Below, piece after piece: positions 1,093-17,183 of a stretch of DNA of 25,465 bases (the first letter of the stretch is position 1; every line of letters starts with the position of its first letter). The stretch comes from Saccoglossus kowalevskii (lineage: Eukaryota; Hemichordata; Enteropneusta; Harrimaniidae), in contig NW_003144288.1 in assembly GCF_000003605.2 (NCBI RefSeq), positions 241,468 through 266,932 on the forward strand. The letters are read 5' to 3'. The notes beneath the pieces are model-generated. The model saw only the letters and a program-made list of their open reading frames with translations. It ran no database searches and was not told the DNA's origin. Both the position numbers and the translations under genes were made by a program.

Positions 1093-4000
1093 GTAGGTTT
1101 AGTGTCGATTTAGGGGAGTGGGGTGTGGCAACACTGCCGCGATATTACTCTATGGATCACACTCTTAAAAATTACAGTTTAAGTTTAGTTGAATATATTC
1201 AGGTGTTGGAGATGATGTTATGCTATTTTGATGCTATTTTGATGATATTTTGAACACCATAAATTGTGGTGCAACGTTTGACCTGTTTTATGTATTTTTC
1301 TCATTTTTTAAAATAAATTTGGACCAAATTGGCTGCAAGTCTTAATCAAGATTTTGGGAAAAATTATTAAAAGATATTCATTTTGAAGTTGTGACGATGA
1401 CCAAAATTGACTTAGGTAATCAAAGGTTTAACAAAATGTGGTTTTCATCATCTTTAATAATTGTTCATGATGTACAATAACTTCGTAATCCAAATAATAT
1501 CATATCTTGAGACATTACTGATCAGTATAAAAATTTTCCCAAGTTCCATTTTGCTGTGTCTCTGGAAATATTGAGAAAATCGTGACATGTTCAATACATT
1601 TTACCTGTCACTGATAAATTCAATATTGTATTTAAATTACATGTAACTTTAAAATTTGGGGAAGGTTAGTTGTACTGTACTGCAATCAAGCAAACTGAAA
1701 AAAAAAAGTGATCGTCTATTCTGTAACCAGATCTTGTTGTGCCTGAACAAATTTCATTGAAACTTTTTATGCATTGAACATAATTGGACCATCAACAGCA
1801 AATAAACATAGATTCTGATTTGATTCAAAATGTCCGATTAATGGACATTTTAACAAATACTATTTCAGAACCATATGCCTGATATCAACTTTAAACCTGT
1901 CACATATATCAACATACATTCTTTTCAAGTTCTGATTCAAAATGGCTGTCTCAAGTTTTATTTGTTGTGAAGACTGTGATGACTCGATGTGATTTTTTTT
2001 TTTACCATAGCCTACAGGTTTTTATCAACAACAAAAATATGATAGTATTTATGGAAGTTTATTCATTAGGTTGACTATGTATAATTGTTGGTTCATTGTT
2101 CATAGGTAGCAGGTGATCATCGTTATCATCCAGAGTGTTTTGTTTGTGTTAACTGCAATATTTACATTGGGGATGGAGAAAGCTATGCTTTAGTGGAAAG
2201 ATCCAAACTATACTGGTTAGTAACAATTATTTCATCACTGTGTGTATATGTTCTGGCAAGGAGTATTGTAAATACAATAGGTGTCAAGCAAACATGAAAG
2301 TTTCCCATTTTATTACACAATATTAGGTACCACAAAAAATGTGCAATCTCAGGTATCTGTGTATGGTGATATGAAATGAAATCTCAGTCTGCAAGAGTAC
2401 CATGCATGTGTCAATCAAACTTGTTTCAACCAATAGCTCCACAGTATATGCTGCATGTATAGATGCGTTGATTGAGCAAAATGATTGCAATAATGAAATA
2501 GGCAAAAGCGTAATGCACACAGTATAATAACCTGAAACAAACACTGTTAGTAGTTCGTTAATGAACTCACTCATTTGTATTACTGTAAAATACTTTTTTT
2601 TAGCTGGAATTTATTTTCGCTGAAAAGACTTTTTGGGTGTTTTGTATGGAATTTATTTACACTGATTTTTGACAAGTTGAATGTAAAATATAGGAAAAAA
2701 GGTATATTCGCTGGATTTTATTTTCAATAAATCATTCCTTCAGGGAAAATAGCGAAAATTAAAGTGTATTTTACAGTACCGGTAGTATTTTGTTCTTATC
2801 TCACAATTTGTAAGCTTTTATATTTGGATTTTCATTGCAAATATCATGACAGTCGCATACCCTTATCTGTGGTGCTACATAAAGTTGAGATTCTACAATC
2901 CAGCTATTATTAGTCCCCGTTCGGACGAAGTCCAAAAACGGGGACTTATAATTCGGTCTCTGTCCGTCCGTTCGTCGGTGCGTTCGTGTGTCCGTCCGTC
3001 CAGAGTCATATCTCAGAATCCCTTGGACCGATTCTGTTCATTCTTTGCATATGCCTAGTACCTTATGTGGGACATATGCACATGCAGTGGTTTAGTGATT
3101 CGATTTAAAATGGCTGACTGGCAGCCATCTTGTTTTTTGAAAATGTTTTATTTTGGACATGCTTTGTCAGTTGTCATTCAAACTTGGTACATAGATTATA
3201 CATGTTAGGATACATGTCCATGACGATTTATTTCGCAATTGTATCAAAGACTGGCAGGCATCTTGTTTTTGTTTTTTTATGCAGTATCTTGGACGTGCTC
3301 TGTCAGTTTTCATTCAAATTTGGCACATACATGTACTTTATACATGTTAGGATGCATGTCCATGACAATTTGTATCAAAATCTGGTCAAGGATGGCCGAT
3401 TGACAGCCATCTGACTTTTTGGCCTTACTACTATATTTCCACAATTTATGTATGATTTTCATTCGTATTTGGCACATACATTTTACATATCAGTGTGTTT
3501 CATAATCAAATCAAAGATGGCCGAATAACGGCTGTTTTTATTTTTGGCCATATTACTACTACACGAAACACGCGTTTTGATGTAAATAAACAATCTGTTG
3601 TACACGCCACTTGGAATTCAAGTTTCAAGGACACGCTCGCGACAACCCCTCTGCTTTAACATGACGAGCACAAAGAGAACTTTCAAAAATGTAACGGGGA
3701 CTGTTTCATTTTCAATGACTTGTTGATTTTTTTACTTTGGCAGTGGTAGATGCTATCAACAAGTTGTTGTACCCCTAGTCCTGAGTATACCGAATTCGAA
3801 GACTCCACATACTGTTCAGCTGCTAACCATACCGCCCACTCCAGAGGGACGCAGTTGTTTGACGCTTTCATTCGAGAGACACGTCAGTAATTTTATCAGT
3901 ACCGAAAATGATGATATACAAAGGAAAGAAAGTTTATGTGTTACAAAGTAAGTTATTTTTGTTATAATTAATTATAAATTTGGACTGTATTGTGTAGTTT

Positions 4001-17183: not shown

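Follow-up and report, generated by a model that had tools for sequence, protein, structure and literature searches.

The window, a 25,465-nt stretch of Saccoglossus kowalevskii DNA (contig NW_003144288.1), carries part of the gene LIMK on its plus strand, identified by its LIM (1.9e-16), PDZ (3.2e-6) and Pkinase (2.9e-49) domains in Pfam and by a match to LIMK1 in the PDB (5.7e-129). The exons at 3744, 5050 and 16248, which are central to this study, were borne out by splice sites and an unbroken reading frame. Exon 5 (5831-6077) required two reading frames with a switch near 5910-5930, suggestive of a frameshift or of a one-base error in the assembly. A second gene, on the strand opposite to LIMK, is represented by an RNA pseudouridine synthase exon at 23442-23633 (minus strand; PseudoU_synth_2, 5.8e-11), and a 21-nt tandem repeat of approximately 22 copies upstream of this exon (24472-24937) perhaps belongs to the same gene. 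The window also contains a MITE-like repeat family (TACTGTAAAATACTTTATTTTCGC...) in both orientations, at 9673-11041, 2581-2762, 17785-17949, 20286-20477 and 23894-24074, which served as the strand control described below.

The repeat family in the LIMK introns

The initial annotation had placed three copies of one repeat family in LIMK introns, all in sense orientation, with a terminal motif 36-41 nt upstream of the exons at 3744, 5050 and 16248. Both statements were confirmed. The motif occurs on the plus strand as ACGGGGACT at 3694 and 5005 and as ACGGGGAC(G) at 16199, in copies termed c1, c2 and c3 (Table 1), and its end lies 41, 36 and 41 nt from the respective exons. The end of the element itself (GACTTG; GATTTG in c2) lies 21, 16 and 21 nt from them. 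A search of the window allowing at most one mismatch returned seven motif matches against 1.13 expected in shuffled sequences, and four of the seven are inside the two 5′ hairpins.

Table 1. Positions of LIMK and of HINE-related features in the window
Feature	Position	Strand	Context or evidence
LIMK gene part	957..17185	+	14 exons read (LIM, PDZ, kinase)
Decayed relic of the HINE family	1717..1946	+	LIMK intron 1093-2105, sense; nhmmer E 1.7e-4 vs c3; ends indefinable
HINE copy c1, full length	2912..3722	+	LIMK intron 2216-3743, sense; 5′ hairpin and 3′ motif
c1 5′ subTIR AGTCCCCGTT and complementary IR AACGGGGACT, inner GGAC-GAA-GTCC hairpin	2912..2946	+	DNA fold -11.6 kcal/mol, z -4.05
c1 GTCC/GTCG microsatellite-like stretch	2962..3001	+	Sequence
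c1 3′ subTIR ACGGGGACT	3694..3702	+	Motif match
c1 3′ palindrome TCATT-TTC-AATGA, element end CTTG	3706..3722	+	Conservation limit in 91 copies; palindrome DNA fold weak, z -0.59
Host T-rich tract and acceptor AG of exon 3744	3723..3743	+	Unconserved between copies; exon frame
HINE copy c2, more diverged	4255..5033 (5′ limit approximate)	+	LIMK intron 3948-5049, sense
c2 3′ subTIR, degraded palindrome, element end	5005..5033	+	Motif and alignment; fold z +0.74
HINE copy c3, 323-nt tandem units, internal assembly gap	14756..16226	+	LIMK intron 13407-16247, sense
c3 5′ subTIR (AGTCCCTGTT) and IR AACGGGGACT hairpin	14756..14790	+	DNA fold -12.4 kcal/mol, z -4.74
c3 central tandem repeats, period 323, 2.4 copies	15338..16124	+	More units upstream of gap
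c3 3′ subTIR and 3′ palindrome GTCATTGACAATGAC, end CTTG	16199..16226	+	DNA fold z -2.75

The search for the 5′ hairpin at c2 gave no match. The gap in c3 consists of 206 N at 15131-15336 amid the tandem repeats, and the repeat number is that of the assembled units alone. The intron housing c3 also contains, at 13880-14580, two 160-nt arms of 84% complementarity separated by 381 nt. The relic, which lies in intron 1 upstream of c1, is recognisable only up to 159 nt upstream of the next exon. Identity in the aligned parts was 66.6% between c1 and c2 and 67.9% between c1 and c3, and the nearest sampled genomic copies with enough sequence showed 95.0% identity to c1 (L016, over the last 400 nt), 76.3% to c2 and 95.5% to c3 (L076). 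The low identity among the three and their closer relatives elsewhere suggest that each copy arrived independently and belongs to a different subfamily.

By its anatomy, the family belongs to the HINEs, non-autonomous rolling-circle transposons of the Helentron type. Its 5′ end has a subTIR followed closely by a complementary IR (AGTCCCCGTT...AACGGGGACT in c1, AGTCCCTGTT...AACGGGGACT in c3), its 3′ end has a subTIR and then a palindrome near the terminus (ACGGGGAC, TCATTNNNAATGA and CTTG), and the interior carries the GTCC microsatellite of c1 and the central 323-nt tandem repeats of c3. Ts flank both element ends at the occupied sites. A canonical Helitron (Helitron1), which begins with 5′ TC, ends with 3′ CTRR and lies between A and T, was rejected, as the ends here are AGTCCCC and GACTTG and are T-flanked. 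The genome contains eight matches to Helitron_like_N (PF14214), the best at 1.4e-29 within a 977-aa frame; those in long open frames, C2261:3150874-3151464 and C238:1801-2133, are candidate autonomous partners. An Rfam scan of the window gave no match, the end patterns tried found no copies in viral contig and other genome contig collections, and a text search of papers found none containing the end sequences.

Element boundaries and distance to splice acceptors

The assembly of the window (572,110,611 bases in 4830 contigs) contains 843 exact 3′ ends of the element (428 forward, 415 reverse) and no match to the reversed control pattern. The first 100 of these copies in contig order (loci L001-L099, one of which has two copies) were taken as a sample. 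In 91 copies, GACTTG is followed by T in 99% at +1 and in 85% at +2; T then falls to 42-53% at +3 to +8 and the composition is near background further on, except for A at +10 (48%) and T at +12, +13 and +14 (49%, 66% and 42%). As conservation ends at GACTTG|TT, the T-tract and AG that follow the LIMK copies belong to the host, and an element-supplied T-tract or AG is ruled out. The proposal that the element end supplies the polypyrimidine tract was accordingly abandoned, and of the sequence described as shared after the motif, only the part up to GACTTG belongs to the element. The 5′ module (subTIR and IR) was present in the loci of 48 of the 91 copies, with two copies sharing one module. T occupies -1 and -2 in 100%, -4 in 81% and -5 in 98% of these 48 copies, giving the consensus TT[A/T]TT before AGTCCCC.

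These boundaries bear on an introner-like origin, also raised in the initial annotation, in which the element would bring its own 3′ splice site and create or take over introns. The LIMK acceptors do lie immediately behind the element, as this would predict, but the element stops at GACTTG, the T-tract and AG differ among copies, and the 5′ ends of c1, c2 and c3 are separated from the upstream LIMK donors by 696, about 307 and 1349 nt. Few of the sampled copies, moreover, were immediately followed by a supported exon. We therefore regard this origin as scarcely tenable and rejected it.

The spacing seen in LIMK proved not to be a rule of the family. In three of the 100 sampled copies, the element end is followed at 8-40 nt by a likely exon: L001 (21 nt; aldo/keto reductase exon, Pfam 5.8e-4), L039 (33 nt; kinase exon, Pfam 1.7e-5) and L061 (26 nt), where the near exon has no Pfam match and a later exon of the locus has one. 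A first count by eye had put three of 91 copies in the near range and two of 91 in a control range. The exon caller described below made five calls in the near window (L018, L039, L052, L055, L061) against 8, 5, 6, 9, 5 and 6 at six control offsets. Genome-wide, TTNCAG occurs after the element end 66 times at 5-30 nt and 84 times at 65-90 nt, the one control distance used. With 3 of 100 copies near an exon and no excess in the raw TTNCAG counts, a fixed acceptor distance was rejected. Of the two outcomes that the initial annotation had named as refuting its reading, the first was observed, as raw counts showed no pile-up at acceptors; the second was not, as strand was far from random (see below).

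Supported exons, by comparison with raw motif counts, were somewhat over-represented near the element. The 66 TTNCAG places correspond to 65 sites, of which 46 were read (6 + 40) and 19 left out. An open frame of at least 20 codons was present at 31 of the 40; among the other six, the L039 exon at that AG was searched and five were examined by the exon caller only. A homology-supported exon started at that AG in 7 of the 46 sites: chromodomain (L105), TH1 (L118), RING (L134), AdoHcyase (L123), lymphoid-specific helicase (L129), myoferlin (L115) and L039. Matches to RVT_1 and DUF2164 and a weak APC1 match of L101 (0.046) were left uncounted. Besides LIMK, the genes with near-acceptor copies appear to be NELF-C, HELLS, AHCY, myoferlin, a chromodomain gene and a guanylyl cyclase. 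The control comprised four TTNCAG acceptors of likely exons at 41-500 nt from the 100 copies (L003, L043, L060 and L070, although the L060 exon itself lacked a Pfam match), counted over 46 kb of copy-length. The near rate was 4.4-5.1 fold the control rate (p 0.008-0.016, with 850-1000 copies assumed), or p 0.05-0.08 with Pfam hits alone, the near set having been searched harder (every open frame, PDB and Pfam) than the control (without PDB). Within the sample, 3 of 100 copies at 8-40 nt compared with 13 at 41-500 nt gave a ratio of 3.2 (p 0.09); the 13, which come from a set of 25 exons and 19 distances, take in L017, L028 and L058, whose identities are putative. These figures hint at a modest local excess of homology-supported exons, consistent with oligo-T targeting and amounting to no rule.

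True acceptor targeting, in which the insertion machinery would recognise 3′ splice sites through chromatin, an R-loop or bound splicing factors, accords with the three LIMK copies, the sample ratio of 3.2 and the 7 of 46 TTNCAG sites with a supported exon (approximately 4.4-5.1 times the control). Set against it are the at least about 95% of sampled copies that lie elsewhere, the raw motif counts without excess, the more thorough search of the near set and the assumed 850-1000 copies behind the ratio, and we judge it quite improbable. The link between insertion and acceptors that had been suggested from LIMK is thus retained as the slight enrichment of supported exons and dropped as a pile-up in raw counts.

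Strand of copies relative to host genes

The strand of neighbouring genes was examined with an exon caller, trained on LIMK and run on both strands over the 1450 nt downstream of 91 copies. On LIMK it recovered 11 of 14 exons exactly and three by overlap, with three false sense calls and six antisense calls; because of this training and these false calls, the strand count was limited to loci supported by Pfam. Predicted peptides of at least 20 aa (62 sense and 38 antisense, after one duplicate or overlapping peptide was dropped from each set) were scanned, and a locus was counted when a peptide matched at E 0.01 or better and the exon lay within 1450 nt downstream, Pfam having been applied to 91 of the 100 copies. 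Eighteen loci were sense (L003, L004, L019, L020, L023, L033, L036, L039, L042, L043, L054, L057, L060, L061, L069, L070, L071 and L075), the matches of L033 (0.0029) and L042 (0.001) being weak, and one was antisense (L021, KH). The sense loci were confirmed individually, and 30 of the 38 antisense peptides were likewise scanned one at a time. A single tandem-repeat peptide of L018, in which no stretch passed, accounted for the other three antisense families; the eight antisense peptides left over (seven from L034, one from L046) gave none of the families from the joint scan.

The sense share expected from target composition is 54-57%. The 18:1 ratio differs from 1:1 with p 8e-5 and from 0.573 with p 4e-4, or with p 4e-4 and 0.0018, respectively, when L018 is added as antisense. 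Exon calls without homology gave 33 sense and 10 antisense loci at a score of at least 13, and 56 and 42 at a score of 9, where false calls dominate. The MITE-like control family gave eight same-strand and six opposite-strand copies, with the gene strand taken partly from exon calls. Exons read as real in 21 kb of upstream flanks (L017, L019, L036) were sense and none was antisense, tandem-repeat calls in L049 aside. Four further loci, which we take to encode TARS (L017), CYFIP (L028), PLC-beta (L058) and a DDX11-like protein (L103), contributed neither to the strand count nor to the 7 of 46. The data, which comprise 19 oriented loci among the 100 copies that come first in contig order out of 843, support the conclusion that the shared strand of the copies is not due to chance. 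The argument that the same strand and spacing in three LIMK copies exceed chance thus stands for strand and fails for spacing as a property of the family. No report of such a strand bias was found in open-access titles and abstract beginnings on Helitron or Helentron orientation and splicing; the word Helitron is absent from the main text of a review of strand asymmetry (PMC10030826), as is the word orientation from a paper on intronic INE-1 (PMC6881055).

The bias could arise at insertion or afterwards. Under purifying selection alone, insertion would be strand-neutral, copies that disrupt splicing or lie antisense in introns would be lost, and sense copies near acceptors would be saved by a branch point in the element. 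In line with this, 12 of the 41 copies in the older c1-type subfamily (median nearest-neighbour identity 95.1%) are genic-sense and no antisense copy was seen, whereas the youngest, c3-type (97.6%), has 3 of 45 genic-sense and one antisense (p 0.009 for the more frequent genic-sense c1-type). This count used 19 genic-sense loci, three of them with putative identities (L017, L028, L058), and predates the confirmation of L020, L033 and L042. The weakest bias being in the youngest subfamily mildly favours selection. On the other side, the ages of genic-sense and other copies did not differ (p 0.29), and 42 full-length copies showed no clear antisense excess of harmful signals: per kb, sense and antisense strands carry 0.54 and 0.09 acceptors, 0.09 and 0.41 donors, and 1.4 and 2.23 poly(A) hexamers, all densities below those of sense-strand host introns. 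With signals sparse on both strands, antisense orientation entails no obvious harm, which mildly favours insertion as the origin of the bias. Selection alone thus seems plausible, if short of even odds, and we lean slightly towards insertion into exposed non-template DNA.

Target choice and comparison with known systems

We favour, at a probability of roughly 0.68, insertion aimed at oligo-T on the coding strand, including polypyrimidine tracts, and regard LIMK as an extreme draw. A HINE would insert between the Ts of an oligo-T target, probably as single-stranded DNA, with its 5′ end set between TT[A/T]TT and AGTCCCC and its 3′ end between CAATGACTTG and TT. Nearly every intron bears an oligo-T polypyrimidine tract on the coding strand. 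An element placed on the T-strand and preferring the coding strand would enter some of these tracts in sense orientation, and since the tract is itself coding-strand oligo-T, the 3′ end of the element would automatically come to lie approximately 15-35 nt before the acceptor. LIMK would have taken three such copies, of different subfamilies, and retained the host T-tract and AG.

Insertion at this position probably parts the native branch point from the AG. At its end the element carries ATGAC (GTGAT in c2), a sequence that resembles a branch point. The A of this sequence is 20-25 nt away from the LIMK exons, and the sequence possibly replaces the native branch point as a ready substitute; the host TTGAT or ATGAT behind c1 and c3 could equally serve. 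A more far-reaching proposal, which we consider unlikely as a whole, is that HINE senses the direction of transcription by inserting where the coding strand of a germline-transcribed gene is exposed. In polypyrimidine tracts its conserved 3′ palindrome would then act as a portable branch point, and splicing would be kept even though the intron tail had been replaced.

The three LIMK copies were also compared with explicit target models. The probability that one insertion is sense and 10-35 nt from a LIMK exon was 0.013 for uniform insertion, 0.020 at TT and 0.032-0.075 at T-rich sites. Among sense insertions into LIMK, those at T-rich sites (at least 6-8 T in 10) would lie 10-35 nt from an exon in 5.6-11.5% of cases. 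Under a model built from the copies' own flanks, 2-4% of sense insertions into LIMK would come to lie at 8-40 nt, compared with 3.8% under uniformity, and this similarity indicates that finer T-targeting does not yield three copies in one gene. LIMK may simply be where three copies fell at acceptors and have been picked for that reason, as many windows and patterns were scanned and the preferences for sense orientation and T-rich sites raise the odds. However, under the flank-derived model, at least three of four insertions being both sense and near has p 5e-6 to 5e-5, and being near given sense has p about 3e-4, which leaves coincidence combined with attention somewhat unlikely. If the 18:1 bias holds over all copies, Helentron insertions would be a footprint of transcription direction, and the target choice of Helitron-type single-strand intermediates would become testable from sequence alone. 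The copies near acceptors, in LIMK and other genes, are natural experiments in branch-point replacement.

Among known systems, Cg_HINE of Crassostrea gigas, in the available part of its description (PMC7492417), likewise has a 5′ subTIR with a complementary IR of 7-12 bp, a GTCY/GTCC microsatellite, central satellite-like repeats, a 3′ subTIR followed by a palindrome, and a TT or T-rich target, with no target-site duplication reported. That text places copies in non-coding parts of certain genes, and an analysis of strand or splice sites does not appear in it; the likeness is one of described structure, as the text gives no end sequences for an identity comparison. DINE-1/INE-1 and mite HINEs, according to PMC4067079, in whose text no word begins with 'splic', share subTIRs at both ends, a 3′ palindrome, terminal Ts and a T-rich target. 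The mite subTIRs differ in being palindromic themselves and in lying 38-60 bp from the 3′ end, compared with about 20 bp here. Helitron2, as described in PMC5148889, resembles the present family in its asymmetric terminal inverted repeats (ATIR) and terminal hairpins, and its insertion point is said there to lie between TTTT and either T or C; its fungal members are larger and mostly known through autonomous elements, whereas the copies here are non-autonomous. Introners, as described in PMC9860276, are also transposon copies within the introns of many genes, but in the present family the element contributes neither splice site and is smaller than the LIMK introns.
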